Positions 2,670 through 44,422 of a stretch of 64,000 bases of DNA are shown in pieces. The translations under genes and the position numbers were made by a program. Each line of letters opens with the position of its first letter. Within the stretch, counting starts at the first letter, position 1. Below the pieces are notes generated by a model. The model was not told the DNA's origin. It saw nothing but the letters and a program-made list of their open reading frames with translations, and ran no database searches. The stretch is from Parabacteroides faecis (lineage in GTDB: Bacteria > Bacteroidota > Bacteroidia > Bacteroidales > Tannerellaceae). The DNA is taken from assembly GCF_014647375.1 (NCBI RefSeq), contig NZ_BMPB01000006.1, positions 124,001 to 188,000 on the forward strand, read 5' to 3'.

Positions 2670-3779
2670 TTATTTTACTTGTGTTCCTTCACGTACCAAT
2701 CCGGCTCCTTCGGATACAATTTCTTCACCAACCTTAAGCCCGTCGAGTACGATATATTCACGGCCGTCGCTGATTTCAGCAACGGTAATTAATGTAGAAA
2801 CGGCCTTACCATCGACTACTTTGTAAACAAGGGTTTTATCTTGCAAACGGACTGTTGCGCCTTGCGGGATAACGATGCAGTCTGTGTAGGTTTGCGGAAT
2901 GAGTACATTGCCGGATGCTCCGCTATGGAGTAGGCGGGATTCATTCGGGAAAACGGCTCTAACGCCTACCGTACCGGTTTTGCGGTCGATCACTCCGCTG
3001 ATAGATTCAATTTTGCCTTTCTGCTCATAAACAGACTGGTCGTTCAGTTTCAAAGTGACTTCCGGCATATTGGCCAAAGCTTCATCCATGCTTTTATGTT
3101 GACGGCTCATGGCCAAAAGCTGGTTTTCCGTCATGGAGAAGTAAACATACATATTTGAATTGTCAGAAACAGTTGTTAAAGGCTGAGGAATATTGGCACT
3201 AACCAATGCTCCGGCACGATAAGGCAGCATACCGACTACTCCGTCGCTCGGACTTTTTACTTCTGTATAAGAAAGGTTGTTTTTTGCATTTAACTCCTGT
3301 GCTTCTGCCTGTGACAGTTGCGCTTTGGCTGTCAGGTAATTGTTCTGGCTTGTTTTCAGATTGAATTCGGAAACAACTTTTTTGGCAAACAGTTCTTTTG
3401 TGCTGTTGTAATTCAATTCGGCAGTACCTAAAGCTGCTTTTGCAACCTCAACGTTGGCTTGAGCTGTTTTCAAAGCGGCCTTATAAGGTACTTGGTCGAT
3501 TACAAAAAGTAACTGTCCTTTTCGTACAACCTGTCCTTCTGTTACGCAGAGCCGTTCGATAGTTCCTGATACTTGCGGATAAATATCTATATCTTGGCGA
3601 CCGCGAATAGACGCTGAATAGGGTATGGTCAACTCCCTATTGGCTGTTGAAACTTTCATTGTTGCGTAAGATGCTTTCATCTGTGCATCCGACGTCTCTT
3701 TTTTACAGGATGTCATCCACATTGTCGTACAACCAATAATCATCATCAGCTGTATCCATCTTGCTTTTGCTTGTATCAT
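2670..3779 (-). CDS. RND efflux periplasmic adaptor subunit (AcrA/MexA-like lipoprotein)
   Basis: This membrane-fusion protein links the RND pump to an outer-membrane channel. It has 369 residues. The N-terminus is a lipoprotein signal with lipobox MTSC, Cys25. A barrel-sandwich (lipoyl-like) half follows around residues 60-95 (IYPQVSGTIERL, EGQVVRKGQLLF). A helical hairpin covers about 100-165 and is rich in A/Q/L/N (KTSQNNYLTAKAQLSQAEAQ). The second lipoyl half (YTEVKSPSDGVVG) and a beta-barrel domain complete it. It is first in the operon, with the pump 11 bp downstream. A TAAATTTG -7 element lies just upstream on the minus strand at 3803-3810. No dedicated TetR- or MarR-type regulator is seen next to it. 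Confidence 0.93.
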   Translation of the reverse strand: MIQAKARWIQLMMIIGCTTMWMTSCKKETSDAQMKASYATMKVSTANRELTIPYSASIRGRQDIDIYPQVSGTIERLCVTEGQVVRKGQLLFVIDQVPYKAALKTAQANVEVAKAALGTAELNYNSTKELFAKKVVSEFNLKTSQNNYLTAKAQLSQAEAQELNAKNNLSYTEVKSPSDGVVGMLPYRAGALVSANIPQPLTTVSDNSNMYVYFSMTENQLLAMSRQHKSMDEALANMPEVTLKLNDQSVYEQKGKIESISGVIDRKTGTVGVRAVFPNESRLLHSGASGNVLIPQTYTDCIVIPQGATVRLQDKTLVYKVVDGKAVSTLITVAEISDGREYIVLDGLKVGEEIVSEGAGLVREGTQVK

Positions 3780-3802
3780 ATGTCTTAATTTGTTAAATGC
3801 CG

Positions 3803-3810
3803 CAAATTTA
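3803..3810 (-). promoter_or_regulatory. -7 element for the RND efflux operon
   Basis: The minus strand reads TAAATTTG, which fits the Bacteroidetes -7 consensus TAnnTTTG and lies 24 bp upstream of the adaptor ATG. No clear -33 TTTG is seen at the expected distance. Confidence 0.45.
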
Positions 3811-3947
3811 ACAGATGAATGTAGGAAATTATTTGTCTGAATTTTTATATAAATCTTCTGTATTTATAGTATACGGATATTTTAAGAAAAGAAAATCTAA
3901 TGAAATAAAATAAATGTGTGATATCGTTGTACACATTATCCGGTACC

Positions 3948-4002
3948 AGATAAAAGTTAACTGGTTTTATCTTAGAAGTATGCGAAGAAAGCCGTATCTT
4001 TG
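3948..4002 (+). promoter_or_regulatory. Promoter region with a dyad, upstream of the U32 gene
   Basis: A -7 element TATCTTTG sits at 3995-4002, 28 bp before the TTG start. Upstream is a perfect 8-bp inverted repeat AGATAAAA-N9-TTTTATCT (3948-3955/3965-3972), which overlaps where a -33 element would lie and could be an operator. No canonical -33 motif is visible. Confidence 0.5.
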
Positions 4003-4029: not shown

Positions 4030-5286
4030 TTGAACGAGAAAGATTTTGAAATAATGGCGCCGGTCGGCTCGTATGAGTCGTTGATGGCAGCTATCCAGGG
4101 AGGAGCCGACTCCATCTACTTCGGCATTGAAGGACTGAATATGCGTTCGCGCTCTTCCAATAATTTCACCACGGACGATTTGCGTAAGATTGTCTCCATC
4201 TGTAAGGAACACGGCATTAAGAGTTATCTGACGGTTAATACGGTTATTTATGGGGAAGACCTGGCATTGATGCGTGAAATTATCGATGCGGCAAAGGAAG
4301 CGGAAGTCTCTGCAATTATTGCGGCAGACGTGGCTGCCATGAGTTATGCGAACCGGATCGGGCAGGAGGTTCACCTGTCTACCCAACTGAATATATCGAA
4401 TGTGGAGGCGCTGAAGTTCTACGCCCAGTTTGCCGATGTGGTGGTGCTGGCACGCGAATTGAATCTGAAACAGGTAGCCGAAATCTATCAACAGATCGTA
4501 GAACAGCAGATAACCGGTCCGAGAGGCGAACTGATCCGTATCGAGATGTTTGCCCACGGAGCCTTGTGTATGGCTGTTTCCGGTAAATGCTATTTGAGCC
4601 TGCATGAAATGAATGCGTCTGCCAACCGGGGTGCTTGCATGCAAATCTGCCGCCGCGGATATACGGTGAAAGATAAGGACAGCAACATCGAACTGGATAT
4701 AGAAAACCAATATATCATGTCGCCCAAAGACCTGAAAACGATCCATTTCATGAATAAGATGATGGATGCAGGCGTGCGGGTATTCAAGATCGAAGGTCGT
4801 GCCCGCGGACCGGAATATGTGCGTCTCGTGACTGAATGCTATAAAGAAGCAGTGAAGGCTTATTGCAGTGGAACATATGATGAAGAAAAGATCGCCGTCT
4901 GGGACGAGCGTCTGAAAAGCGTCTTCAACCGGGGCTTCTGGGACGGCTATTATCTGGGACAGCGTTTGGGTGAATGGAGCAGCAAGTATGGTTCCGGTTC
5001 GACTAAGAAGAAAGTCTATGTGGCGAAAGGCATCAAATACTTCAGCGGCATCGGTGTGGCTGAATTTGAAATGGAATCGGGCTCGCTGAAAGCGGGAGAT
5101 GAGATTCTGATCACAGGCCCGACAACCGGTGCGGTGATGCAGACCATCGATGAGATACGTGTCGACCTGAAGCCGGTGGAAGAAACTGTAAAAGGCGAGC
5201 GTTTCTCCTTCAAAGTATCTGAAAAGGTACGCCCTTCCGACCGCCTGTATAAAATGGTACCTAACAACGATAAAGAACTGAAATAA
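4030..5286 (+). CDS. Peptidase U32 family protein, TrhP/YegQ-like
   Basis: U32 family member of 418 residues. Characterised relatives (TrhP/YegQ, RlhA) are RNA-hydroxylation factors rather than proteases; TrhP makes 5-hydroxyuridine at tRNA position 34 from prephenate. The U32 signature is clear: EMFAHGALCMAVSGKC, followed by YLS, with further cysteines in GACMQICRR that could hold an Fe-S cluster. A beta-barrel-like C-terminal domain covers about residues 330-410. The start is most likely TTG at 4030: an in-frame TAA lies at 4015-4017, so no start further upstream is possible. An ATG at 4054 would remove the first beta strand (FEIMAPVGS), where family members begin. It overlaps the next gene by one base (TAATG). 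Family is certain; the exact RNA target is inference. Confidence 0.9.
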   Translation: MNEKDFEIMAPVGSYESLMAAIQGGADSIYFGIEGLNMRSRSSNNFTTDDLRKIVSICKEHGIKSYLTVNTVIYGEDLALMREIIDAAKEAEVSAIIAADVAAMSYANRIGQEVHLSTQLNISNVEALKFYAQFADVVVLARELNLKQVAEIYQQIVEQQITGPRGELIRIEMFAHGALCMAVSGKCYLSLHEMNASANRGACMQICRRGYTVKDKDSNIELDIENQYIMSPKDLKTIHFMNKMMDAGVRVFKIEGRARGPEYVRLVTECYKEAVKAYCSGTYDEEKIAVWDERLKSVFNRGFWDGYYLGQRLGEWSSKYGSGSTKKKVYVAKGIKYFSGIGVAEFEMESGSLKAGDEILITGPTTGAVMQTIDEIRVDLKPVEETVKGERFSFKVSEKVRPSDRLYKMVPNNDKELK

Positions 5287-5696
5287 TGAAAGAGTATATT
5301 TTTAAACTGACAGACAAGGTGCGCGATTATGAATGCGACCTGCAGGGAGTAGTGAACAACTCCAACTATCAGCATTATATGGAGCATACCCGTCATGAGT
5401 TCCTCGAATCGCTGGGCGAGAATTTCGGAGCCATGCACGATAAAGGGGTGGACGGCTTCGTTTCTCATGTGGAGATAGATTATAAAACATCTTTGAAGAG
5501 CGGCGACAGTTATATCTCTTGCCTGAATGTGTATAAGAAAGGAGTGAAGCTGGTTTTTGAACAGGATATCTACCGGGCTTCCGACGGCGCGCTGGCAACC
5601 AAGGGAAAAGTTGAGTCTGTAGTTGTGCAGGACGGCAAGCTGACCCGCGGCGAATATTTCGACGAAATGCTTAAAAGGATACAGGATAAACTATGA
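5286..5696 (+). CDS. Acyl-CoA thioesterase, hotdog fold (4HBT/YbgC-like)
   Basis: A 136-residue single-domain hotdog thioesterase that hydrolyses acyl-CoA or related thioesters in the cytoplasm. The N-terminal motif YECDLQGVVNNSNYQHYMEH matches the 4HBT active-site segment (D...GVV..xxY) at the start of the long hotdog helix, followed by the VEIDYKTSLKSGD strand. The length is typical. It is translationally coupled to the U32 gene by a TAATG overlap and lies 8 bp before dprA, so the three genes form one operon. The substrate is unknown. Confidence 0.9.
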   Translation: MKEYIFKLTDKVRDYECDLQGVVNNSNYQHYMEHTRHEFLESLGENFGAMHDKGVDGFVSHVEIDYKTSLKSGDSYISCLNVYKKGVKLVFEQDIYRASDGALATKGKVESVVVQDGKLTRGEYFDEMLKRIQDKL

Positions 5697-5704
5697 TATA
5701 GATC

Positions 5705-6814
5705 ATGACAGACAACCGGATTTACCAAATTGGCTTAACTATGATAAACGGGGTAGGAGATATCCTGGCCCGTCAGCTTTTGCAAACCTGTGGCGATGCA
5801 GAAGGCGTTTTTACAGAAAAACAGCAAGTATTGGAGAAGATTCCGGGTTTCGGCACGGCTACGGCTGCTGCCATCAAACGCCCGGAAGTCCTTCTGCAAG
5901 CGGAAAAAGAGTTAGCCTTTATTGAAAAGAACCAGATCATCTGTTATTTTCTGACAGATGAGAATTACCCGAAACGTTTGAAGGAGTGCTCCGATGCTCC
6001 GGTACTTCTTTATTTCAAAGGCGGTGCCGATCTGAATGCTTCTCGTATTATCAGTATTGTTGGAACCCGGCATGCGACGGAGTATGGCAGGGTGATGACG
6101 GACGAACTGGTACACACCCTTTCGCTTTCTATCCCGAACTTACTGATCGTAAGCGGACTGGCTTATGGTATCGACGTATGTGCCCATCGGGCTGCGCTTA
6201 AAGCGAACTTGCCGACGGTAGGTGTGCTGGCTCATGGGTTGGATCGTATTTATCCGCCTTCGCATCGTTCCGTAGCAGTGGATATGTTGGACCGCGGAGG
6301 TTTGCTGACTGAATTTCGCAGTGGAACGGAACCGGATAAGCCGAACTTTGTACGGCGTAACCGGATTGTTGCGGGTATGGCGGATGCGACGGTCGTCATA
6401 GAATCTGCCGAGAAAGGCGGCTCGCTGATCACTGCCGATCTTGCTTTCTCCTATGGGCGTGATGTCTACGCATTTCCCGGTCGGGTAAACGATCTCCATT
6501 CGAAAGGCTGCAATGCCTTGATCCGGCAGAATAAGGCTGGGCTGATAACTTCCGCTTCCGACCTTATCTCGGCGCTTTGCTGGGATATAAAGGAAACAGC
6601 TTCTCCTCTCCCTGTTCAGACTGAATTGTTTTTCGGGGAAGATGATCGGACAGCACCGGTAATAACTGTTCTCCGTGAAAGAGGTGAGATGCATATCGAC
6701 CAACTGGCAGTTGCATTGAATCTGCCTGTCCGTGAACTGTCATCTTTGCTCTTTGAACTGGAGATGAACGGTTTGATCAGGACTTTGCCGGGAAATATCT
6801 ACCGGCTTGCCTAA
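5705..6814 (+). CDS. dprA: DNA-processing protein DprA
   Basis: DprA (Smf) binds incoming single-stranded DNA and loads RecA during natural transformation; it is also widespread in species not known to be competent. The 369-residue protein has an N-terminal helix-hairpin-helix/SAM-like region (EKIPGFGTATAAAIK). The Rossmann domain follows with SGLAYGIDVCAHRAAL from S150 and the conserved block RNRIVAGMADATVVIES plus EKGGSLITADLAFSYGRDV. A C-terminal winged-helix-like domain (about 310-369) finishes it. It is the last gene of the U32-thioesterase-dprA operon. Its final 38 bases are overlapped by the convergent LtrA-family gene. Confidence 0.96.
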   Translation: MTDNRIYQIGLTMINGVGDILARQLLQTCGDAEGVFTEKQQVLEKIPGFGTATAAAIKRPEVLLQAEKELAFIEKNQIICYFLTDENYPKRLKECSDAPVLLYFKGGADLNASRIISIVGTRHATEYGRVMTDELVHTLSLSIPNLLIVSGLAYGIDVCAHRAALKANLPTVGVLAHGLDRIYPPSHRSVAVDMLDRGGLLTEFRSGTEPDKPNFVRRNRIVAGMADATVVIESAEKGGSLITADLAFSYGRDVYAFPGRVNDLHSKGCNALIRQNKAGLITSASDLISALCWDIKETASPLPVQTELFFGEDDRTAPVITVLRERGEMHIDQLAVALNLPVRELSSLLFELEMNGLIRTLPGNIYRLA

Positions 6815-7958
6815 CGGTTTCATAAATAACTACCGCGATAAATATCAGTGCCGTTAATCCATTCAATTGAAGTGGATTGAAAAAGCGAGCGAACGGAATT
6901 ATAAGGGCTAATGTAAGAATTGCGATCACATGCGACCAAGCGATTAACTGACATGTGATCCATTTATATATGGCATTACTCATTAAATAAATGATCGGGC
7001 CGCCCACCATCGCAAAGATGCCGCCTGTCGTCATTTCTCCCAACGGGTGATTGACAACCAGTTCGTCACCAACCGCACAGATGATCAGTGCACCGACCAG
7101 TACCACATGTATCGAGTGATATTTCAGGCCGAGTAAACCGGGATTCGATATCTTTTTGATCTTCCGGCTGCCTGCCTCGCTGCTGACATCAAAATAAATC
7201 CACCACATCGCCAGGCTATTGGTGAAAGAAATGATCGCTGCATAGATAATTGTAGAATCCCATATCTCAAAATCGCTGAGTGAAGCCCCCGTCATCATAA
7301 TCGTCTCACCGAAAGCGATAATGACGAATAACTGGCTTCTCTCAGCCAGATGTTGTCCTTCGATTGTCCACTCTTTACTGGAAATAGACCGTCCGAGTCC
7401 CGGCAGGTAAAAGCCGAACATAGGCGAAATATAATCGCACAGGACGGCAACCAGCCACAAAAGAATACGTGTGTCCCCTTCGCTGAATGCCCCTGTTATC
7501 CAGAATACGGCAGAGATACAAAACCAACCCAATATACGTTTGAAATTAGGAGATAGATGGTGCTTTTTATCCAGTAGAAAGACAATTACGATTGTCCTCC
7601 CTAACTGGATAGCGACATAACAGGCAGCAAAGATTAGCCCCCGGCTTGTATAAGCTTCGGGAATAGCCGAAGCCATGATCAATCCGACTAGCATCAGGAT
7701 AAACAGTAGTATCCGGATCGAACGTGTTTCGGGGTCGAACCAGTTGGTCACCCAGGTTGTATGTTGCCAGGCGAGCCAGACAGCAAACCACAGGATGATT
7801 TCCTGTACATATCCTTGCCAGTCCAGGTGATGAAGCAGATAATGCGACAGCTGTGTGACTGCAAAGACATAGATCAGGTCGAACAACAGTTCCGAATAGG
7901 AGACGGAAGCTCTTTCCTGCTCCCTACTTCTTAATAAATGATGGGAAGAATGCGACAT
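6777..7958 (-). CDS. Low-temperature-requirement A (LtrA) family membrane protein
   Basis: A polytopic inner-membrane protein of 393 residues with about ten hydrophobic segments. The N-terminal signature is that of the LtrA family: SYSELLFDLIYVFAVTQLSH, followed by WLAWQHTTWVTNWFDPET. A second conserved block is AERSQLFVIIAFGETIMMTG. LtrA was named from a Listeria mutant unable to grow in the cold; its biochemical role is not established. The gene is monocistronic and convergent with dprA, with the two coding ends sharing 38 bp, leaving no room for a terminator between them. It is divergent from the HipA-like gene. Confidence 0.88.
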   Translation of the reverse strand: MSHSSHHLLRSREQERASVSYSELLFDLIYVFAVTQLSHYLLHHLDWQGYVQEIILWFAVWLAWQHTTWVTNWFDPETRSIRILLFILMLVGLIMASAIPEAYTSRGLIFAACYVAIQLGRTIVIVFLLDKKHHLSPNFKRILGWFCISAVFWITGAFSEGDTRILLWLVAVLCDYISPMFGFYLPGLGRSISSKEWTIEGQHLAERSQLFVIIAFGETIMMTGASLSDFEIWDSTIIYAAIISFTNSLAMWWIYFDVSSEAGSRKIKKISNPGLLGLKYHSIHVVLVGALIICAVGDELVVNHPLGEMTTGGIFAMVGGPIIYLMSNAIYKWITCQLIAWSHVIAILTLALIIPFARFFNPLQLNGLTALIFIAVVIYETVRQAGRYFPAKS

Positions 7959-34592: not shown

Positions 34593-35096
34593 ATGAAGAA
34601 TTTCCCTTGTATCGCTTTATTATTCATGTTGCTGGCCTGTGTGACCGGAGCGTCTGCACAGACAAGTACGGACGGATCTGCACAGACGATCTTTGACGAT
34701 CTGCAAACATCGAAGCCGGGTAAAGGCGACGTGATTGTCAACCAGCCGGAGGCGCTTCGTAAGATGATCGGCGTGCGTATGTACGGTGATAATGTCGAGA
34801 AGACGGACAGCACTGCTTTCCTGAAGATACAAGGATTCCGTACGCAGGTGTTTTCCGGTAATAGCCAGCGTAAGTCGAAAGATGAAGCGTTTGAGAAAGA
34901 AAAGATGATCAAGGAGCTTTTTCCAACTGTTCCGACTTATGTAACCTATACTGCTCCGTTCTGGAAATTGCGTGTAGGTGATTTCCGTTCACATGAAGAG
35001 GCTTATCATATGCAGCGTTTGTTGATGACAGCTTTCCCTTCATTCGGAAAAGAAATGTATATTGTAAAAGAAGAAGTAAGAATCCCTCTGAATTAA
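34593..35096 (+). CDS. Secreted SPOR-domain protein
   Basis: A 167-residue protein with a signal peptide ([16 protein letters not shown]). A low-complexity linker is followed by a SPOR-like C-terminal domain at about 85-160: [25 protein letters not shown]-type helix, and [20 protein letters not shown], then [14 protein letters not shown] domains bind denuded glycan strands at the division site. I start at the ATG 34593, since the longer frame has no signal and begins inside the tpiA stop. It lies between tpiA and folE. Confidence 0.88.
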
Positions 35097-35140
35097 TAAG
35101 TGCGGAAACCCTTTCGCATTCCATTATAGATAACACAGAA

Positions 35141-35734
35141 ATGACAAAAGAAATAGATGCAAAGACTTTGGCGGAACGCGAAGAACTGGCGGGCCATTAT
35201 AAACAAATACTCGGTTTGCTAGGTGAAGATCCCGAACGTGAAGGTCTGCTCAAAACGCCGGAACGTGTAGCCAAAGCTATGCAGTTTTTAACCAAAGGAT
35301 ACAACGAAGACCCTGCCAAAGTATTGGCTTCTGCCATGTTTCAGGAAGAGGATTACAAGCAGATGGTCATTGTAAAAGATATTGATTTCTTCTCTCTTTG
35401 CGAACATCATATGCTGCCTTTCTTCGGAAAAGCCCATGTCGCTTATATCCCTAAGAAATATATTACCGGTTTGAGTAAGATTCCCCGGGTGGTGGATATT
35501 TTTGCCCGCCGTTTGCAGATACAGGAACGCCTGACGATGCAGATCAAAGACTGTATCCAGCAGACACTCGATCCGCTGGGTGTAATGGTTGTGATCGAAG
35601 CACAGCATATGTGCATGCAGATGCGGGGGGTGGAAAAACAAAATTCCCTGACAACGACTTCTGACTTCACCGGTTTCTTCCAGCAGGCAAAGACCCGTGA
35701 GGAATTTATGAACCTGATCAAGAATAACCGGTAA
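35141..35734 (+). CDS. folE: GTP cyclohydrolase I
   Basis: Converts GTP to 7,8-dihydroneopterin triphosphate, the first step of folate and pterin synthesis. The 197-residue protein is full length. It has the zinc-binding and catalytic segment [19 protein letters not shown], then [20 protein letters not shown] and the second signature [20 protein letters not shown] with the His-x-x-Cys ligand. A C-terminal [17 protein letters not shown] is normal for the family. It is the last gene of the operon, 44 bp after the SPOR gene. Confidence 0.98.
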
Positions 35735-35783
35735 GGTTTGTGAGGACGACTCACAGCCTCGTGTGAGAATGACCTACCGTTTT

Positions 35784-35820
35784 GTGGTGACCGTATAGAG
35801 TTATATACGGCCACCTGTTT
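35784..35820. terminator. Probable terminator between folE and the cupin gene
   Basis: CCGTATA (35791-35797) pairs with TATACGG (35804-35810), extended by GTGG/CCAC across a bulge, then TGTTTGTTT. It separates convergent genes. A smaller hairpin, CTCACA/TGTGAG, lies near 35750-35767. Confidence 0.55.
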
Positions 35821-35822
35821 GT

Positions 35823-36524
35823 TTAAGGACGAAGCACATCTGTGAAAACGGCTTTCTGATTAGTGAATTTCAATCCGTTCCCATCCTGATACGTTCCGAA
35901 TTCAGATATGATCGCACCGTTATCGCCTGCACGCAGGAAATGTGGGGAGAGAAGCTCTTTTAGCGGAAGGATATCGCCGACTTTCATATAAACGAAGTTG
36001 GAGACGGTGATGGCTTCTTTCTGACTTTCGGGTAATGCCGGTGGGTCGGGTGTCGGGTCGCCTATTCCGAAGTTATAAGCCGATCCGTTACGTACCATCC
36101 ACGATTCGAACTTAGCCGGATATTCGGTGGTCGCTACGTGACGGTGTTCGGGGATCATCTGTCCGGGCAGCAGGTATATTTCGTGTCCGAAATGACGGTT
36201 GACAGGATCGTTTACCCAAAACACACCCGCCATGCCTGTATGTTCGAAATCTCCCAGGCCGAAATCGGATATCCACATATTCTCTTTCATGAAATCTGTA
36301 AAAGGAACTCCGTAAAACTCAAACATTTCGAGGTAGGCTTTCAGGGCAACCTCGCCATTGAACTTTCCGTCTACATAAAAATCCGCGTTGGTGTACTTCT
36401 TGGTAAATACCTTTTCTTTAATCTGTTCCATGTTGTCTTTACTTTTGTTTGTTTCGCATCCGGTGAATCCGCCTGTTAATAAGGCGGAGATCAGCAGGGA
36501 TACTGTGAATCGTTTTACATTCAT
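35823..36524 (-). CDS. Cupin lipoprotein resembling D-lyxose isomerase
   Basis: A 233-residue protein with a cupin core similar to the D-lyxose/D-mannose isomerase family: FGLGDFEHTGMAGVFWVND, EIYLLPGQMIPEHRH (H-x-H metal ligands) and PAKFESWMVRNGSAYNFGIG. It ends with VSNFVYMKVGDILPLKELL and PHFLRAGDNGAIISEFGTYQ. Unlike cytosolic isomerases it carries a signal with lipobox-like FTGC at Cys23, so it should be exported. It is the last gene of the SDR-aldolase-kinase operon, overlapping the kinase by 4 bp (ATGA). A role in presenting or epimerising the sugar outside the cytoplasm is inference; the isomerase assignment is by pattern only. Confidence 0.6.
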   Translation of the reverse strand: MNVKRFTVSLLISALLTGGFTGCETNKSKDNMEQIKEKVFTKKYTNADFYVDGKFNGEVALKAYLEMFEFYGVPFTDFMKENMWISDFGLGDFEHTGMAGVFWVNDPVNRHFGHEIYLLPGQMIPEHRHVATTEYPAKFESWMVRNGSAYNFGIGDPTPDPPALPESQKEAITVSNFVYMKVGDILPLKELLSPHFLRAGDNGAIISEFGTYQDGNGLKFTNQKAVFTDVLRP

Positions 36525-38062
36525 TGTTCATTCATTTGTTTGTTAATACTGTTCAGGGAAGCTATATGATCGGCAAGCGCCTTGAAGTTCGAGAGTGCTT
36601 GCCGGTAGATTGCCTGATGCCGCGGATCAGGCAGGAACCGGTGTTGTGTCTGATGCAAGTAGTCGATCCTGTCGTAACTGTTCCAAAGGCCGGTTCCTTT
36701 CAGGGCTAGCGCGGCAGCTCCGAGTGAAGCGGCCTCCTGTCCGATATTCGTCTTTTCGATTTCCAGTTCGTAAATGTCGGCAAAGAGCTGCATCCAGAAA
36801 TTACTTTTTGTACCGCCTCCGACGAATAGCATATCTGTGAATCCGGTATGGTATTTCCGGAACAGGTCCAGGGCGATGCGCAGGTTCAGGGCAATGCCCT
36901 CCATTGTCGCCCGGATCAGGTCGGCACGGGTGTTTCCTAATCTTAGTCCGGTGAAGGCGCCTGTCATATCCGGACTAGGTTCGATACTCGATCCGCCTGC
37001 CAGACTGGGATTGAACAGCAGGCCATTCGATCCCGGAGCAGATGCTTTCGCCAGTTTATTCATGGCGGTGTAGGCATTTTCGCCCCCTTGTTCTTCGACC
37101 GCCAGCAAATCGGGACAAAGGGTGTCGCGTACCCATTGCAGACTGCTTCCTGCCGAGAATATGCAGGTTGCAGAGGCATACATTCCTTTGATGACATGGG
37201 CGAAGATATACGGCTTTTTGTCGAAGTCCAACACCGGTTTTTCGGATATCAGGGCGATCCAGGCAGACGAACCGAGCGAGGTGTAAATCCGGGAAGGTTT
37301 GATGCCTTTGCTGCCCAGTGCCATGCAGGAGTTATCCACGCCGCCGCATATCACTTTGACATGTGTGGGTAAACCGGTTTCGAGAGAGGCTTCCGGGGTA
37401 ATCGTGCCGATCACTGCGTCGGAGTCCAGTATTTCCGGGAAGAGGTCCGGACGGATACCTGAAGCCTGTATATATTCCTGTTTGTAATCCCATGTTTCCA
37501 GATCGAAAACTCCGCTTCCGGATGCGTACGAATAGTCCGTGCAGAGTCTGCCGGTAAAGCGGTAATTACAGTAATCCTTGGTACCGATCACCTTGTCCGT
37601 TGCTGCGTACTGTTCCGGGAAATGTTTTTTATACCACATGATCTTAAAGATCGAGTAACATTCCGGCGGAAATCCGTTGCCGGTCGTTTCGTACCATTCT
37701 TTGTAATCGGTTCGGGAAAAGAATATTCCGGCTTCTTCCGTTGCCCGGCGGTCAGACCAGATCGGGGTGGAGGTAAGCAACAAGTTACCGTCTTTTCCTA
37801 TCGGGATGACCCCGAGGCTGTGTCCGGAAATAGCCAGGGCTACGATATCGTTTTTATCGCATTTCGTCTTTTCCGACAAAAGTCGGGTGGAATGGATAAT
37901 GGCCTGCCACCAATCGTCGGGCGCCTGTTCCTGTCGGCCGGGTTGCGGATAGGCGGTAGGATAGGGGATAAAGACGGAATGCAGTGTTTCGCCGTCCCGG
38001 TTGAACAGGGAGGCTTTTATTCCTCCGGTTCCCAGGTCGTAAGATATAACTTTTTCACTCAT
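36521..38062 (-). CDS. FGGY-family carbohydrate kinase (xylulokinase-like)
   Basis: A cytoplasmic sugar kinase of 513 residues that phosphorylates a ketose or polyol with ATP. The N-terminal phosphate-binding loop is SYDLGTGGIKASLFNRDG, and YPQPGRQEQAPDDWWQA is the xylulokinase-type substrate segment. The FGGY C-terminal half contains ICGGVDNSCMALGSKGI, YTSLGSSAWIALIS and FVGGGTKSNFWMQLFADIYE. It overlaps the upstream aldolase by 8 bp and the downstream cupin by 4 bp, so the three are coupled. The exact substrate is unknown; context argues for a sugar whose phosphate is split by the DeoC-type aldolase. Confidence 0.88.
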   Translation of the reverse strand: MSEKVISYDLGTGGIKASLFNRDGETLHSVFIPYPTAYPQPGRQEQAPDDWWQAIIHSTRLLSEKTKCDKNDIVALAISGHSLGVIPIGKDGNLLLTSTPIWSDRRATEEAGIFFSRTDYKEWYETTGNGFPPECYSIFKIMWYKKHFPEQYAATDKVIGTKDYCNYRFTGRLCTDYSYASGSGVFDLETWDYKQEYIQASGIRPDLFPEILDSDAVIGTITPEASLETGLPTHVKVICGGVDNSCMALGSKGIKPSRIYTSLGSSAWIALISEKPVLDFDKKPYIFAHVIKGMYASATCIFSAGSSLQWVRDTLCPDLLAVEEQGGENAYTAMNKLAKASAPGSNGLLFNPSLAGGSSIEPSPDMTGAFTGLRLGNTRADLIRATMEGIALNLRIALDLFRKYHTGFTDMLFVGGGTKSNFWMQLFADIYELEIEKTNIGQEAASLGAAALALKGTGLWNSYDRIDYLHQTQHRFLPDPRHQAIYRQALSNFKALADHIASLNSINKQMNEQ

Positions 38063-38756
38063 GGGCTTCTTTGTTTATGCATTCTTCCATAATGTGGAGA
38101 GCCGATCTGTAACCGATACCGAAACGGCTGACACCCAGCCGGTGCATTTCCAGAAGTGTGTCGAGTGTGCGGACTCCACCGGCTACTTTCAGCCGGATGG
38201 TATCTCCGACCATCTCTTTGATCAGGGCGATATGATGGAGCGTAGTAGCTCCGGCCCATCCCGTTCCGGTTTTGATATAATCGGCTCCGGCTCTCAGGAT
38301 AAGGGTAGAGGCTATTTTTATCTCTTCGTCTGTGAGAAGAGCTACTTCCATGATCACTTTCAGCGGGAGGGGAGATACTTCTGCTTTGATCTGCCTGATC
38401 TCATCTTCCACTTCGGTCAGCATACCTGATTTTAGCTTGCCGATGTTCAGAACCATATCGATCTCGTTACAACCGGCTTTTTTCAGTTCCTGCGCCTGGA
38501 ATAGTTTGCAGGTTGTTGTCTCCGCACCGGAGGGGAAGCCTACGACTCCGCCGATACCGGTCTGCGGATGGTTTTTCAATTTCTCAAAAACGAGAGGGAG
38601 CATGCCGGGCATGGGGAAGACACAGATGAAGTTATGCTTTATGGCGGCTTCGATAATGTCTTCCACATCCTGGCGGGTGGAATCTGCACGAACGGCACTG
38701 ATGTCGATCAGGCGTGCAATTTCCCGGGAGGATATATTAGGTGTGTTAGTGTCCAT
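38055..38756 (-). CDS. deoC: DeoC-family aldolase (deoxyribose-phosphate aldolase type)
   Basis: A class I aldolase of 233 residues. DeoC splits 2-deoxyribose 5-phosphate to glyceraldehyde 3-phosphate and acetaldehyde. The Schiff-base Lys is in DYIKTGTGWAG, a second conserved Lys in RLKVAGGVRTL, and the Asp in CNEIDMVLNIGKLKSG. PSGAETTTCKLFQAQELKKA is also characteristic. I start at the ATG 38756, 4 bp after the SDR stop; an upstream start would overlap that gene. In this operon it may cleave a related phosphorylated sugar rather than serve nucleoside salvage, because no nucleoside genes are near. That is inference. Confidence 0.88.
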   Translation of the reverse strand: MDTNTPNISSREIARLIDISAVRADSTRQDVEDIIEAAIKHNFICVFPMPGMLPLVFEKLKNHPQTGIGGVVGFPSGAETTTCKLFQAQELKKAGCNEIDMVLNIGKLKSGMLTEVEDEIRQIKAEVSPLPLKVIMEVALLTDEEIKIASTLILRAGADYIKTGTGWAGATTLHHIALIKEMVGDTIRLKVAGGVRTLDTLLEMHRLGVSRFGIGYRSALHIMEECINKEAHE

Positions 38757-38760
38757 GATA

Positions 38761-39531
38761 TTATAAGCTGGTGTAACCGCCGTCGACAATTAAATCAGTT
38801 CCTGTCGTGTAGCGTGCGGCATCGCTTAACAGGTATAAGTAGGCTCCGACCAGGTCTTCGGGGACACCGAGGCGTCCGGCGGGTATTTTCGATATCCATC
38901 CTTCGTGCATATTCTTCATTTCGGCAACCAGCTCAGTCGCCATATATCCCGGACTGACACAGTTGACGCGTATATTATATTGGGCCCATTCCACAGCCAG
39001 CGCCTTGGTCAGCAGGAGAACACCGCCTTTAGAGGCACAGTAGTTGGCTATTGTTTGAGGCGTATTGATAATATGGGCAGACATCGAAGCTGTGTTTACA
39101 ATACTTCCCGCTTTTCCTTCTTTGATCATTTGGCGGGCAGCAGCCTGTGCGGTTAGGAAAACTCCGTTCAGGTTGATGTCGACCACTTTCTTGAAGTCTT
39201 TGGAGGAGATCTCTTCGGCGGGATAGGTGTTTGCTATGCCGGCATTGTTGATGGCAAAATCGATGGTGCCGTACTCTTTGATAAATGTCTCCATCATCCG
39301 TTTGACATCTTCTGCATCTGTTACGTCGCAACGGATAGCGGTCGTGTGTGCGGAATAGCGATCGGTTAGTTCTCCGGCTGTCTTTTCTGCTTCCTCGATG
39401 TCGATATCGACAATGGCGATCGAAGCACCCATTTCCGTAAATGCTTCGGCAAGGCATTTGCCAATACCTCGTGCGGCTCCGGTGATGAAGCCTTTTTTCC
39501 CTTTCAGGCTGAATAAATCAAGTGTTTTCAT
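38761..39531 (-). CDS. Short-chain dehydrogenase/reductase (polyol or sugar dehydrogenase)
   Basis: An NAD(P)-dependent SDR of 256 residues, the first gene of the catabolic operon. The cofactor loop is ITGAARGIGKCLAEAF (TGxxxGIG), with Asp-Ile-Asp (IAIVDIDIEEAEKT) after the second strand favouring NAD over NADP. NNAG is in FAINNAGIANTY. The catalytic Ser, Tyr and Lys are in VNTASMSAH and NYCASKGG, followed by VNCVSPGYMATELV. The C-terminus DLIVDGGYTSL is typical. It probably oxidises a polyol or sugar before kinase and aldolase steps. The 22-bp repeat array lies upstream of its start. Confidence 0.9.
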   Translation of the reverse strand: MKTLDLFSLKGKKGFITGAARGIGKCLAEAFTEMGASIAIVDIDIEEAEKTAGELTDRYSAHTTAIRCDVTDAEDVKRMMETFIKEYGTIDFAINNAGIANTYPAEEISSKDFKKVVDINLNGVFLTAQAAARQMIKEGKAGSIVNTASMSAHIINTPQTIANYCASKGGVLLLTKALAVEWAQYNIRVNCVSPGYMATELVAEMKNMHEGWISKIPAGRLGVPEDLVGAYLYLLSDAARYTTGTDLIVDGGYTSL

Positions 39532-39619
39532 GGATATATGTTGATTAATTAATGGAAAATCAGAAAAGAGGTTACTGTGTTGCTCGTCAGACTATTGCAG
39601 TTTCCTAAATTTTTTTAAT

Positions 39620-39719
39620 AAGGGAACTCCGGTTTCCACCGCAGGAAACGCCAGTTCCCTCGGCAGGAAATTACAGTTCCCCAGGCAGGAAACTGGAGTT
39701 TCCCAAGCAAGAAATTCTT
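39620..39719. repeat. 22-bp tandem array of GTTYCC...GGAAAY dyads
   Basis: Units start at 39632, 39654, 39676 and 39698, exactly 22 bp apart, with consensus GTTYCCNNNGCAGGAAAY. A half unit (GGGAAC, 39622-39627) lies in phase before the first. Unit 1 is a perfect dyad GTTTCC-N6-GGAAAC. The array sits 89 bp upstream of the SDR start codon, between it and the heme protein gene. Confidence 0.85.
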
Positions 39720-39807
39720 GCGTATTAAGACAGCATATCCCTTTTCCTCCCGAAAGAGGAATGAATATTACAGTATCTCGAATGAAAAAGATAAGACCGG
39801 TCGCTTT

Positions 39808-42171
39808 TTACTTATCGTAAACCTTCCCGTCTTGTCCGATGATCGAACAGTTTTGTTGCTCGATCTTCAGTCGTTCCGCATATTTTCGCAGTTGCGCTTT
39901 ATGCCGTTCGCAAGGAACAAGGTCTTTTTCGATATCTCCGCGTGGAGTTGCTTTCAACCGTTTCTGTCCGGTACGGATAATTTCGACGGCACGGGCATAT
40001 TTCTGTTTGTCGTTCCGTATCTTATCCAGGCATGGGCTGACTTCAGGACGGTCGAAAGATATCTGTACGGTCAATTTTCTCCCGTGGTTGTTGAGCTCCC
40101 AGATGTTCACCTCCGTCAGTTTTATTAATTCCTCGATCTCCTGGTTATATAACGGGCTTCGTCCGGCTAGTGTCGAGTCGAAAGCAGATTCGTATACCGG
40201 ATAGTAGACGCCGTTTAGGTCCATCCAGGTGTAAAGAATCTCTTTTTCTTTGGGAGATAATTTGACTCCCTGATGGTTACCGTCGATAACTTTCGTCAGC
40301 TTGCTGGCATGCGCTCCCCAGGAATAAGGCTCTTGTATCGGGGCCGGGCCGCCACCGATGAGGGTGATCTCCTTCTTTACATATAAATTGACATAGGCAG
40401 CGTTGAAGAACGGGTTCTTGTCTTTTGCCAGTACGAGTTTATCGCGGTTTTTAGGGTCGAAGTCATGGCAACGCACGCAATTCTTATCCAAAACAGGCTG
40501 GACCTCTTCCATGAACGAGAATTTTTTAGGTGCTTTTCCCATCCATCCGGTTAGTTTTACCGGTGCCTTTTTCAGAGCCAGCGGCTTAGGACCCATCGCG
40601 CTGGGCACGCTCAGGCGGTCTTCGTGGCAACCGATACAACCGTTTATCTCTCCCGACATGACCATTGTGCCGCTTCGCATGGATTGGATCATCTTTTTAT
40701 CTTTATCCAGTAACTGGAAAAATACAAATGTACCTGAAGGGACCTCGAAGTTGACCGAACCGTCTTCTTCGACCGGTACTTCCCCCAGAATACGTTTATT
40801 CTCAAAGCTATGCCAGTTGACTGCCGGCGCCTGTTCGCCCTGACCGCCCCAGCCGCTCTTTGTCCATGTTCTTTTTTCCGGGGATTCGATGACGCGTAGA
40901 TATTTGGCGGTACCCGGTTCCACCCCTTTCATATGTGTTCCGTGGTAAACGTTCTGTACATAGAAAGTCCCCTTTTTGTCCGTATAATTTCTGTTGGAAG
41001 GAATTGTGTGCGGTTTAGGGCGCGGTTCGATGATCATCGGGTCAAAAAGGCTTCTGTTCCCTTCAACGATCAGTTCCTGTGTGCCGTCTCTCCCGACCAG
41101 GTAAATACCGGATTTGGAATCGACATGCATCCAGCCTCCGGGTTTAGCCCAGATGGTACGGGAAGTCAGGAAGAATTTTTCATTTAAAGGATAAGGGTCT
41201 TCAAAGAAATATTCAATCCATTTGAAGGAGTCCAGGTCTCCTTTGTCGACGAGTTTCCGGCTTTCTTCCGGCCATATTTGTACGACCGGTTCCACTCCGT
41301 CCACACCCTTCTTCCGGTCTATAATGGCAAGGGCACCCCAGGGACGGTCATGGCAGGAGCCGAAGATACAGATTACCTGGTCGGTTCCCGGTATCTGGCG
41401 TCCGTCAATCACACCTCCGGGCGATTGGGTATTATTTCCGTAGTAGATGGAATGTTTGGTGCCGTCGGGATTGACGGTCCATAAACCCTGCGCATCTCCG
41501 AAGTTGCGGTCTACATATTCCCAGCGGTCATACAGGATCCTGCCATCGCTTAACAGGGTAGAATGGCCTTCAAACAAAGTACTGACCCCGATCTGGGTAA
41601 TGTTTGCCCCGTCTGCCTCCATCCGGTATAGATTACACATGATATGGCGGTTGCACATACAGTATTTCGGCTGGCGGGTGGAGCTAAACAGAATCCCTCC
41701 GTCGGGCAGGTATAAAGGATCTATATCCGACACCCCTTCGGCGAAGGTCAGTTGTTTTAATCCGCTGCCATCCGTGTTTATTTCGTAAATATGATAGAAA
41801 TCGTCCTTGTTTTTCCGCATGGAGAAAATGATCTTTTTCCCGTCGAAAGATAATTCCGGATCACGTACAACTCCATCTTTCAGTTCGATCAGTGTGGTCG
41901 TATTCCCTGTGTTTACATCAAAAATACGCATGGCACCTCCCGGGAAGAAACTGCTTTCATTGATTTCCCCTTTCTGGAAAAGAGTGGCGGTATTGTGATG
42001 GTCCGGGGCATACTGTTCCCTTTCTATATACAATATTTGTTTTCCCGCCAGTTGTTCTTTGGCCTTTGCGGTGAGTGTAATTTTCTTCGGGTCCATTTGT
42101 TCGGCGGAAAGTTGCATACTCCCTATGCAGACTGTCGCCAGAAAGATGATGAATTTGCTGTAGTTTCTCAT
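39808..42171 (-). CDS. Secreted di-heme c-type protein, hydrazine synthase alpha (HzsA)-related
   Basis: A 787-residue exported protein (signal FIIFLATVCIGSMQLSA). The N-terminal two thirds is a beta-propeller of TolB/PD40-like blades: ELSFDGKKIIFSM, YEINTDGSGLKQLTF, DPLYLPDGGILFSSTRQ, LLSDGRILYDRW. Two c-type heme motifs follow: CIGCH at 512-516 and CVRCH at 565-569. The overall order matches proteins annotated as HzsA-related. Hydrazine synthase proper is confined to anammox bacteria, so the reaction here must be different, perhaps electron transfer or oxidation of a substrate on the propeller. It lies between the IclR regulator (26 bp) and the sugar-catabolic genes. Two hemes need a cytochrome maturation system elsewhere in the genome. 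Confidence 0.8.
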   Translation of the reverse strand: MRNYSKFIIFLATVCIGSMQLSAEQMDPKKITLTAKAKEQLAGKQILYIEREQYAPDHHNTATLFQKGEINESSFFPGGAMRIFDVNTGNTTTLIELKDGVVRDPELSFDGKKIIFSMRKNKDDFYHIYEINTDGSGLKQLTFAEGVSDIDPLYLPDGGILFSSTRQPKYCMCNRHIMCNLYRMEADGANITQIGVSTLFEGHSTLLSDGRILYDRWEYVDRNFGDAQGLWTVNPDGTKHSIYYGNNTQSPGGVIDGRQIPGTDQVICIFGSCHDRPWGALAIIDRKKGVDGVEPVVQIWPEESRKLVDKGDLDSFKWIEYFFEDPYPLNEKFFLTSRTIWAKPGGWMHVDSKSGIYLVGRDGTQELIVEGNRSLFDPMIIEPRPKPHTIPSNRNYTDKKGTFYVQNVYHGTHMKGVEPGTAKYLRVIESPEKRTWTKSGWGGQGEQAPAVNWHSFENKRILGEVPVEEDGSVNFEVPSGTFVFFQLLDKDKKMIQSMRSGTMVMSGEINGCIGCHEDRLSVPSAMGPKPLALKKAPVKLTGWMGKAPKKFSFMEEVQPVLDKNCVRCHDFDPKNRDKLVLAKDKNPFFNAAYVNLYVKKEITLIGGGPAPIQEPYSWGAHASKLTKVIDGNHQGVKLSPKEKEILYTWMDLNGVYYPVYESAFDSTLAGRSPLYNQEIEELIKLTEVNIWELNNHGRKLTVQISFDRPEVSPCLDKIRNDKQKYARAVEIIRTGQKRLKATPRGDIEKDLVPCERHKAQLRKYAERLKIEQQNCSIIGQDGKVYDK

Positions 42172-42197
42172 GGTGTCCGTATTTAGAAAATGATGAT

Positions 42198-42998
42198 TTA
42201 TTTAGGAATATACCCCAGGTTTGCGGAGATGATGTTAGCTGTCCGGATCAGTTCTTTCGATGTTTCCGGGAATTTCTCTTTTTCCAACCGGCCGGATGGA
42301 CCGGAGGTCCAGATGGTTGCTGCGATACTGCCGAATTGGTTGAATATGGGGGTTGCAATGCAATGAACGCCTGCCATTTCTTCTTCCAGGTCGACGGCAT
42401 ACCCCACTTTTCTTATATGATTTATTTCTTTTCGCATCTGCTCTTCGTTGGCGATCGTACGTTTGTTGAAGACAGTATATTGAATAGTTTGCATCGCTTT
42501 TTCACGCTCCTCGTCCGAAAGGTAAGCCAGGAAAAGTTTACCCGGTGCTGAGGCATGCAGAAAAAAGCTGGTGCCGGGGCGTAGCAGGAAAGTGAAATTA
42601 TGTGAGCCTAAAACCTGTTCGAGCAGGACGACCCGGTTCTCCATGAAGACACCCAACATAACGCTTTCCTTGATCGTATCTCGCAAGGCACGCATCGGAG
42701 CCAGCGATTGTTCTACTATATTCGATTCGCCCAAAGCAGCCAGTCCCAGTTTCAGGAATCGCTTGGATAGGGAGTAGCGTTGTGTATCTGCATCTTTTGT
42801 CAGATATCCCATGCCCTGCATCGAATTTAATAACCGGTATATGGTTGTTTTAGGAGTATCCAGCAAATTTACAATTTCCTGCATGGTTAGGCCACTGGGG
42901 TAATTGACCAGAAACTCCAGTAGCTCGAAGCTTTTTTCAAGCATCGGGATATTGTATTTTGTTGTATTTTTCTCCTCTGTTTCTACCTGCGTGATCAT
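42198..42998 (-). CDS. IclR-family transcriptional regulator
   Basis: A 266-residue regulator. The N-terminal winged helix is at about 15-80 (MLEKSFELLEFLVNYPSGLT, QEIVNLLDTPKTTIYRLLNS). The C-terminal effector domain (about 95-262) has FLLRPGTSFFLHASAPGKLF, and VDLEEEMAGVHCIATPIFNQ with the effector-pocket Cys. IclR proteins sense small metabolites and control catabolic operons. It is transcribed with the HzsA-like and sugar genes, and its own promoter overlaps a strong dyad at 43036-43057, implying autoregulation. It is the probable regulator of the whole locus (inference). Confidence 0.92.
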   Translation of the reverse strand: MITQVETEEKNTTKYNIPMLEKSFELLEFLVNYPSGLTMQEIVNLLDTPKTTIYRLLNSMQGMGYLTKDADTQRYSLSKRFLKLGLAALGESNIVEQSLAPMRALRDTIKESVMLGVFMENRVVLLEQVLGSHNFTFLLRPGTSFFLHASAPGKLFLAYLSDEEREKAMQTIQYTVFNKRTIANEEQMRKEINHIRKVGYAVDLEEEMAGVHCIATPIFNQFGSIAATIWTSGPSGRLEKEKFPETSKELIRTANIISANLGYIPK

Positions 42999-43019
42999 GG
43001 TTGTTTGGATTGTTTATTG

Positions 43020-43083
43020 GTTTCTTATGTGGAACTTTGTTTCTTATTTGAAACAAAAGTAGGTTTTTCTCTGTAACGAACAA
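43020..43083 (-). promoter_or_regulatory. iclR promoter with two tandem GTTTC-N6-GAAAC operators
   Basis: Minus strand: -33 TTG (43081-43083) and -7 TACTTTTG (43054-43061) spaced 19 bp. Overlapping the -7 is the perfect dyad TTTGTTTC-N6-GAAACAAA (43036-43057). A second, related site GTTTC-TTATGT-GGAAC lies 19 bp away at 43020-43035. Confidence 0.7.
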
Positions 43084-43299
43084 TACTAATTTTGTTAATA
43101 AATAATATTATTTTCCCTCGTCATTGTAATTATTCATCTTTGTATACGACTGATGTAGTAAACAATACGATAACGAGTTAATAAATGCACAGCAACAAAA
43201 AAGGACTTCAGGAGTTGGAAGAATTTAAGAAAGAATAACCATTCGTCAAATAATTCTTACCCTTTGTCACAATAATTTCCTCACGTATCTCCCCCCGTC

Positions 43300-43379
43300 T
43301 ACTTTTGATACAAAAAGCAAAAGAGATGGGTGTTTTTTTGTAGCCGGTAGTGCTACATCGAAGTAAAAGAATAAATTTG
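43300..43379 (+). promoter_or_regulatory. Two possible -7 elements for the LytS/LytTR operon
   Basis: TACTTTTG (43300-43307) and TAAATTTG (43372-43379) both fit TAnnTTTG; the second is 20 bp before the ATG. The remaining part of the 42999-43399 gap shows no gene apart from a doubtful 17-codon frame. Confidence 0.45.
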
Positions 43380-43399
43380 TGGAAATAAAGCATACTGAT

Positions 43400-44422
43400 A
43401 TGAAATTATTTCTTCGTTGGATGTATCCGTTGATTCTGGGTGTCGTCATGTTCAATACCATTCGGTTGGTTACTGATTTGCCGAATCATAATCCATTTTG
43501 GGCAGAGTCTAAATCATTTCATGTGATAGCATTATTGGTTTCCGTATTAGTGAGTTATGGATTTGATTTCAAAGGCCGCTATTATATGGAGAAGGTTAGG
43601 GCTAAAAGTTTTTCCGTAACACTGGAATATACTTTGTTGGTTGTGTATTTGTTTTTAAGTGTGAATCTGATTTTGTATGCCGGTGATTCTATAGGTATTT
43701 TATATATGGGCGATAAGCTTGCCGATTATGTGATCGCAAATGTCGTTTGTATATTGTATTTTTTCTTGTACTACATTCTGATTCGAAACGATAAGCTGGA
43801 GAAAGAATATAATCAGCAAACCTTACAGTTGGAGAAGATAAAAGTAGATCAGTTGGAGATCGAACTTAAATTTCTTCGGGCACAGTATCATCCTCATTTC
43901 CTTTTTAATGCTTTGAATACGGTCTATTTCCAGATCGATGAAAAGAATCCGATACCCCGGCATACATTGGAAATGCTGTCGGAGTTGTTACGGTATCAAT
44001 TGTATGGCGGAAATCAACAGGTTTCGGTCCGGCGGGAAATCGATTATCTGAAAACTTATATGGATTTTCAGCGGCTACGGATGAGTAAACGGCTGGTGTT
44101 GGAAGTGCATATCGATGATAAGCTGAAAGATCAGGAAATTTATCCGTTACTTTTTTTACCTTTGATAGAGAATGCTTTTAAATATGTGGGCGGAGAGTAT
44201 AAGATTAATTTGAATATGTCGCTGGAAGACGAAAAGATCATATTTTGTATCGAAAACTCCAAACCATTGAACCCGCCAGAAAAAACTGTCCGTAAAGGTA
44301 TCGGTTTGGAAAATCTCCAAAGGCGGCTTGTCCTGTTATATCCGGATAAATACAGCCTGGAAATACAGGATAAACCATTTTGTTTTATTGCCCGATTGAC
44401 AATTGAAACAGATAATGTATGA
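43400..44422 (+). CDS. LytS/YehU-type sensor histidine kinase
   Basis: A 340-residue membrane histidine kinase with four predicted N-terminal membrane segments (MYPLILGVVMFNTIRLV, VIALLVSVLVSYGFDF, YTLLVVYLFLSVNLILYAG, NVVCILYFFLYYILI), a coiled coil, then the His_kinase domain. The phospho-acceptor His is in QYHPHFLFNALNTV. The ATP-binding part has LIENAFKYVGG (N box) and RKGIGLENLQRRL (G box). There is no large sensory domain, so the signal is probably sensed in or at the membrane. I start at the ATG 43400; a GTG at 43379 lies inside the -7 element. It overlaps its response regulator by 4 bp. Confidence 0.92.
   Translation: MKLFLRWMYPLILGVVMFNTIRLVTDLPNHNPFWAESKSFHVIALLVSVLVSYGFDFKGRYYMEKVRAKSFSVTLEYTLLVVYLFLSVNLILYAGDSIGILYMGDKLADYVIANVVCILYFFLYYILIRNDKLEKEYNQQTLQLEKIKVDQLEIELKFLRAQYHPHFLFNALNTVYFQIDEKNPIPRHTLEMLSELLRYQLYGGNQQVSVRREIDYLKTYMDFQRLRMSKRLVLEVHIDDKLKDQEIYPLLFLPLIENAFKYVGGEYKINLNMSLEDEKIIFCIENSKPLNPPEKTVRKGIGLENLQRRLVLLYPDKYSLEIQDKPFCFIARLTIETDNV

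Follow-up and report, generated by a model that had tools for sequence, protein, structure and literature searches.

The window analysed here, a 64,000-nucleotide stretch of the Parabacteroides faecis genome (NCBI RefSeq assembly GCF_014647375.1, contig NZ_BMPB01000006.1, positions 124,001 to 188,000), holds an operon of six genes in which an exported diheme protein related to the alpha subunit of hydrazine synthase (HZS-alpha) stands with a regulator, a dehydrogenase, an aldolase, a kinase and a cupin. This protein and its relatives are called HZSa below. We believe, with a probability of roughly 55%, that sugar catabolism is the role of the operon and that the extracytoplasmic c-type heme protein of the HZSa family is its first enzyme. 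The original prediction, made from the letters of this DNA, had tied the heme protein to a kinase and an aldolase of the deoxyribose-phosphate aldolase (DERA) type, and the tie holds, since the pairing recurs across phyla.

The operon and its heme protein

The predicted layout was recovered, with all six genes on the minus strand and the last four overlapping or nearly touching. The features are as follows (positions in the window):

42198..42998, minus strand: IclR-family regulator, the first gene (Pfam PF09339 and PF01614)
39808..42171, minus strand: HZSa, exported diheme HZS-alpha-like protein of 787 aa (PF18582), with an N-terminal beta-propeller, the HZS_alpha domain in the middle and a C-terminal c-heme domain
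40624..40638, minus strand: c-heme motif I, CIGCH, HZSa residues 512-516, aligned with heme alphaI of hydrazine synthase (HZS; 5c2v_A)
40465..40479, minus strand: c-heme motif II, CVRCH, HZSa residues 565-569, aligned with heme alphaII of HZS (5c2v_A)
39621..39714, no strand: four 22-bp units in a row, each holding a 16-bp near-palindrome, in the gap between HZSa and the next gene
38761..39531, minus strand: short-chain dehydrogenase/reductase (SDR; PF13561, E 2e-70; adh_short)
38055..38756, minus strand: DeoC, DERA-type class I aldolase with an ATG start (alternative TTG start at 38789)
36521..38062, minus strand: FGGY carbohydrate kinase (PF00370/PF02782, FGGY_N/C)
35823..36524, minus strand: D-lyxose-isomerase-like cupin, exported, probable lipoprotein (PDB matches 7nzo and 2y0o)

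The gaps measure 26 bp between IclR and HZSa, 276 bp between HZSa and SDR, and 4 bp between SDR and DeoC, while DeoC and FGGY overlap by 8 bp and FGGY and the cupin by 4 bp. For DeoC, the ATG start (38055-38756) is more likely than the TTG start (38055-38789).

HZSa matched the Pfam family HZS_alpha (PF18582) at 122 bits (E 1.6e-35; gathering cut-off 26.6). This match, the alignment to 5c2v_A and the comparison of the predicted fold with HZS-alpha confirm the earlier view that the heme protein is a relative of HZS-alpha, and both heme motifs were located exactly where they had first been noted. HZSa and HZS-alpha share the predicted fold (22% identity to 5c2v in the structural alignment) and the two c-heme motifs, whereas HZSa has its own conserved His and Cys motifs and sugar-enzyme neighbours, and the window operon lacks a beta-gamma partner. 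The N-terminus, read by eye, suggests export via a Sec-type signal.

Conservation was evaluated in an alignment of 62 homologues, the A2 profile, which comprises 57 of the 80 loci described below (those passing a length, identity and motif filter) and five other rows. The Cys, Cys and His of both CxxCH motifs were invariant in 62 of 62 rows, and 46 His, Cys, Met, Tyr or Trp positions, start Met included, were kept in >88% of the rows. D57, H58, H59, N60, C171, H176, H274 and the R216-R222 stretch are invariant polar residues. H633 was kept in about 90% of the 62 rows; it lies at the place matching His772 of HZS, the distal ligand of heme alphaII, with the spacing one off and the alignment loose there. 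Both H633 and the two heme motifs were kept in 13 of 13 diverse members. His587 of the HZS zinc site aligned with H516 of HZSa, and C171 and C273 are candidates for Cys303, which the alignment leaves unplaced. The dN/dS of the window HZSa against four congeners was 0.024-0.032 (Nei-Gojobori; dS 1.7-2.8, near saturation), and three pairs among the congeners gave 0.033-0.083 by the same method. As far as substitution patterns tell, the window HZSa is under strong constraint.

Hydrazine chemistry had been considered unlikely for this protein, and our results agree. HZSa scored 48.5 bits against the NCBIfam HZS-alpha equivalog NF052339, for which the cut-off is 800. HZS-alpha (PDB 5c2v, Kuenenia stuttgartiensis) has Tyr591 at heme alphaI, where it is the proximal ligand according to the ligand roles given in the available part of PMC12758564; the window HZSa lacks it. 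Its position aligned with L520 (in CHEDRL) of HZSa, and no Tyr was seen there in the 16 of 62 rows inspected. The HZS complex also has His144 and Cys165 in its gamma subunit, whereas the fused beta-gamma homologues of the window genome lack both (profile alignment, positions counted from CxxCH). Hydrazine synthesis was rejected on account of the loss of Tyr591 and of these two gamma residues.

The window DeoC exceeded the cut-off of TIGR00126 (189 against 117 bits) and has D100, K162 and K190, which we take to be the catalytic Asp and two Lys of DERA-type aldolases; the catalytic residues were kept in 12 of 12 operon copies. It is like deoxyribose-phosphate aldolase in this score and in these residues, but unlike the ordinary enzyme it is an accessory copy tied to HZSa and FGGY. 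Accessory copies share 33-41% identity with the longer DeoC homologue, present once per genus genome, that is taken as the housekeeping copy. The best NCBIfam match of the kinase was XylB (TIGR01312) at 329.9 bits, under the cut-off of 380.25, and xylulokinase was therefore rejected as its name.

The cupin had no Pfam match at E <= 0.01, and its PDB matches are the D-lyxose isomerases 7nzo (E 1.8e-20) and 2y0o (E 1.1e-15). Its H127, H129, E140 and H195, kept in four of four exported cupins aligned, align with the metal site of the solved isomerases and are presumably metal-site residues here. The likeness to these D-lyxose/D-mannose isomerases thus covers both sequence and aligned metal-site residues. 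Unlike them, the window cupin has a predicted export signal with a lipobox-like GGFTGC (N-terminus read by eye) and would work, if at all, outside the cytoplasm. It was matched in 28 of 60 relatives, its own genome included, with no match of >60% identity outside its own genome.

Recurrence of HZSa with the aldolase and the kinase

The HZSa scan gave 568 confirmed stretches, and the best 80, falling under seven phylum labels, were examined with their flanks as fetched, many of which end at contig ends. Among the 80 loci, 77 had a recognisable HZSa. The flanks held a fused homologue of HZS beta and gamma (HZSbg) in 10 loci, DeoC in 9, FGGY in 8, IclR in 8, a Mal-s-1-like propeller in 5, an iron-type alcohol dehydrogenase (Fe-ADH) in 5 and SDR in 4. 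Chorismatase-like genes (2), the cupin (2) and GH2 (1) were rarer, and the commonest unrelated neighbour cluster reached 6. The FGGY count includes L107 (28%, opposite strand) and the SDR count L048 (26%). CcsBA, DhaK, DhaL, the LsrF-type aldolase and a zinc-type alcohol dehydrogenase (Zn-ADH) were found in 0 of the 80 flanks.

All nine flank DeoC genes lie on the HZSa strand. If DeoC is assumed to occur once per 3.5 Mb or once per 1.5 Mb, those 1.15 Mb should hold 0.33 or 0.77 DeoC genes, against nine observed. On a 65-row HZSa tree the DeoC label needs at least seven changes, gains or losses. Of 36 loci scored at first, 10 had DeoC beside HZSa, the window and L020 included; three paralogues came in later, and 24 of 60 labelled rows had been omitted for too little flank.

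Two Kiritimatiellae (L072 and L098) carry the run IclR-SDR-DeoC-FGGY-HZSa, which has five of the six window families. The run HZSa-HZSbg-propeller-FeADH-DeoC-FGGY-membrane protein is present in L049, L052 and L064, and HZSa-HZSbg-FeADH-DeoC-FGGY is shared by Puteibacter, Labilibaculum and Carboxylicivirga. HZSa-DeoC-FGGY occurs in L041 and L116, and DeoC-HZSa in L071 and L087. The IclR gene adjoins HZSa in L019, L022, L044, L061 and L142 and is in the same run in L072 and L098. SDR is present in the L072 and L098 runs and Fe-ADH takes its place in those of L020, L049, L052, L064 and L142; that SDR, Fe-ADH and Zn-ADH stand in for one another suggests that an NAD(P)-linked alcohol or carbonyl step of any kind is enough.

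Proteins directly after FGGY in four loci (L041:4656-5429, L049:19018-20025, L052:9288-10298 and L064:18348-19316) resemble one another N-terminally, look hydrophobic on inspection and are candidate transporters. The L049 protein had no Pfam match, and those of L049 and L064 had no NCBIfam match. In another family (L025:6539-10597), HZSa appears as two adjacent frames of 708 and 638 aa, either a split gene or an assembly error, next to genes for a beta-gamma homologue, a cupin and, by eye, DhaK- and DhaL-like proteins.

Within Parabacteroides, all seven intact accessory DeoC genes in 39 genomes lie within 2.6 kb of an HZSa gene, as does one DeoC fragment (in G062), and the seven FGGY matches at E <= 1e-70 are likewise each no more than 3.3 kb away from one. 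These accessory genes form two orthologous groups plus the G062 fragment, so they represent few independent events. Eight HZSa genes of the genus are of the window type. Intact DeoC and FGGY stand beside two of them, in the window and in G011, where the run is SusD, IclR, Fe-ADH, HZSa, GH2, DeoC and FGGY. A third, in G062, has relics: IclR-HZSa is followed by DeoC and FGGY fragments and then Fe-ADH (L142, contig 10, fragments at 3742-3993), and this locus is a decaying copy of the operon. The other five have neither gene beside them. On gene order, the original prediction was not supported in its exact form: the six-gene order was found in no other genome among the 60 relatives and the 80 loci, many of which end at contig ends. 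One of the seven FGGY genes, of the type seen in the paralogous locus L013, has one TAG stop inside it (G004:C95:8278-9771) and is perhaps broken.

Other HZSa copies and CcsBA in the genome and genus

PF18582 was matched in 18 of 392 Bacteroidota genomes sampled (13 above the cut-off), and the A2 profile in 27 of 39 Parabacteroides genomes. The window genome carries seven HZSa copies, the window's one among them. The operon is not an isolated find: its HZSa is one of these seven copies and belongs to a family under seven phylum labels.

A genus-wide operon with both HZSa and HZSbg lies at 1873-16908 of L015 (contig C2:33000-50000 of the window genome). Its genes encode IclR, HZSbg, a chorismatase/RidA-like protein, an exported cupin (51% to the window cupin), an HZSa of 1337 aa with NPCBM and FGE-like domains, CcsBA, DhaK, DhaL, an LsrF-type aldolase (467 bits on the LsrF-type model NF006081, cut-off 297) and a small Mal-s-1-like propeller. 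An 11-row profile of the HZSbg family matched 5c2v_B (E 1e-32) and 5c2v_C (E 6.8e-29). Of 36 genomes of the genus, the window genome counted, 24 have HZSbg at full or nearly full length, and one further genome has it in two pieces. That FGGY and DERA in some operons give way to DhaKL and an LsrF-type aldolase in others suggests that the substrates of the operons are related but different.

In another locus, L013, a single 19-kb stretch contains HZSa, beta-gamma, DeoC, Zn-ADH and FGGY along with SusD, GH2, GH43, GH78 and GH106 proteins. SusD occurs in four of the seven stretches around the HZSa copies of the window genome, and glycosidases in one more. Near the paralogue of L017, an NrfA-type cytochrome c552 nitrite reductase gene (L017:2429-3916) lies about 2.6 kb from HZSa, which itself adjoins a SusC/SusD pair. 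In L018, a 961-aa protein (4344-7229) just before HZSa and after SusC/SusD has a weak xylose-isomerase-like TIM-barrel match (27.7 bits, cut-off 31.1).

Absence of any cytochrome c maturation system had been named as something that would refute the original prediction; such a system is present, as CcsBA (ResB plus Cytochrom_C_asm) is full length in the window genome at C2:43545-45986. It was matched in 38 of 39 genus genomes, in some in pieces or with stops. Because genomes without HZSa also carry it, CcsBA is not specific to the HZSa system.

Proposed pathway, rival explanations and earlier work

We propose that CcsBA attaches two hemes to HZSa and that HZSa, with the exported cupin as isomerase, would oxidise or otherwise rearrange a sugar or polyol in the periplasm, the electrons leaving through heme II. 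That the sugar is oxidised outside the cell is our inference. An unlinked transporter may then bring the product into the cell, where SDR (in other species Fe-ADH or Zn-ADH) would oxidise or reduce it, the FGGY kinase would add a phosphate and the DERA-type aldolase would cleave the result to a triose phosphate and an acetaldehyde-type fragment. IclR probably controls the gene set. Cleavage by a DERA-type aldolase requires that the compound has by then become a 2-deoxy-aldose or something similar.

Several observations weigh against this pathway. The window operon has no transporter gene, and the exported cupin, found in two of the 80 loci, is rare outside the genus. No DeoC was present in the available flank of 26 of the 36 scored HZSa loci, and the scoring rule favours the link, as positives count at any flank length and negatives need enough flank. 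Within the genus, G022 has IclR and HZSa only and G019, G024, G004 and G023 have HZSa alone, and these five HZSa genes without DeoC and FGGY are still conserved, judging from the dN/dS values given above. The SusD and glycosidase neighbours at five of seven HZSa copies may be no more than background, such loci being common in Bacteroidales. The 276-bp gap with its dispersed repeat array could part two transcripts.

The persistence of HZSa without the cassette in several species also favours another reading, in which the kinase and aldolase are a working pathway for 2-deoxyribose or another deoxy sugar and HZSa serves only for binding, sensing or electron transfer outside, without catalysis. 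The propeller domain of HZSa and the carbohydrate-binding-type NPCBM of a paralogue fit such a role. We consider it unlikely, as the invariant polar residues in the 62 sequences look catalytic rather than structural, and all the diverse members retain the heme motifs as well as H633, which is presumed to be the second ligand of heme II. Chance juxtaposition, with IclR-HZSa as one unit and SDR-DeoC-FGGY-cupin as another joined in this genome, would explain why the exact six-gene set is unique among the genomes and loci searched, why a repeat-holding gap lies between HZSa and SDR, and why IclR-HZSa stands without the rest in G022, L022 (which ends at a contig end) and L044. We regard it as quite improbable, because the same families run together in G011, Puteibacter, Labilibaculum, Carboxylicivirga and two Kiritimatiellae and remain as relics in G062.

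The sugar-catabolic reading must also be compared with two other chemistries. The cassette might degrade, instead of a dietary sugar, a small 1-deoxy-ketose or dicarbonyl of the autoinducer-2 (AI-2, DPD) or deoxyosone type. The window genes are like the Lsr (AI-2) pathway and other pathways of an FGGY kinase and a DeoC-superfamily aldolase in that a kinase is followed by a class I aldolase; the L015 operon has its LsrF-type aldolase above the NF006081 cut-off together with DhaK/DhaL, and the window kinase also matches the AI-2 kinase model, more weakly than XylB. That match reaches 183 bits of the 528 required, however, and the window aldolase is of DERA rather than LsrF type, which leaves this a rather slim prospect. 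We know of no HZS-like protein in the known Lsr system. Nitrogen chemistry by HZSa (on NO, hydroxylamine or hydrazine, or for nitrite protection), with the operon shared by chance or for redox balance, seems very unlikely. Hydrazine synthase alpha is the only close solved relative of HZSa, and the nitrite reductase gene near a paralogue points the same way, but Tyr591 and the gamma His144 and Cys165 are not kept, and the neighbours of HZSa are sugar enzymes in several phyla.

The 22-bp palindromic array was tried as an IclR operator and rejected, since it is a dispersed repeat of the genus and hence not evidence for a pathway operator. The repeat had 15 matches in the window genome, four of them in the HZSa-SDR gap (control 1), and it is scattered in 8 of 37 Parabacteroides genomes searched. 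The RNA fold of the 276-bp gap had a z of -2.64, with 2 of 200 shuffles as low, and the palindromic repeats explain this low energy. No Rfam element matched at gathering scores in 35000-44000.

HZS-like alpha and fused beta-gamma homologues have been described in Planctomycetota and Desulfobacterota (PMC12758564) and in tunnel metagenome-assembled genomes (PMC10732223). Judging from the available parts of both papers, they are of the same families as those of Parabacteroides, with alpha beside a fused beta-gamma and the Tyr591 position lost. In the accessible portion of PMC12758564, FG-GAP-protein and ABC-transporter neighbours are given for some clades, Bacteroidota are named as homologue holders only for beta-gamma, no top structural hit to HZS alpha has another experimentally confirmed function, and the words sugar, carbohydrate and aldolase do not occur in the main text. 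As far as its available text goes, PMC10732223 treats nitrogen and metal cycling and proposes a broader enzyme family with alternative substrates. No sugar link of HZS-like proteins was found in the open-access literature, as far as its texts were available, and nothing there was found to join DeoC, FGGY and operon in Bacteroid organisms.

The HZS-like families themselves are thus already in print, and what is new here is the sugar-enzyme linkage of HZSa and the expansion in gut Parabacteroides. For the hydrazine synthase family outside anammox, the linkage names a testable substrate class, carbohydrates; the family may act on sugars, given the same partnership in distant bacteria. The setting of this linkage is a gut genus that can be cultivated, and it draws attention to an operon that has alpha, beta-gamma and a CcsBA of its own. 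Tentatively, and with more doubt than confidence, we propose that a widespread HZS-like alpha and beta-gamma system processes carbohydrates outside the cytoplasm in Bacteroidota, Planctomycetota, Verrucomicrobiota, Kiritimatiellota, Lentisphaerota and others, that it has expanded in gut Parabacteroides, and that anammox hydrazine synthase evolved from such a complex. If true, a heme-dependent extracytoplasmic step would be added to gut glycan metabolism; to our knowledge, such a step is not part of the standard Sus-type picture. One probable difference from the published homologues concerns the second heme: His772 is lost in those of PMC12758564, according to the part of the paper available, whereas the HZSa family here largely keeps H633 at the matching place.

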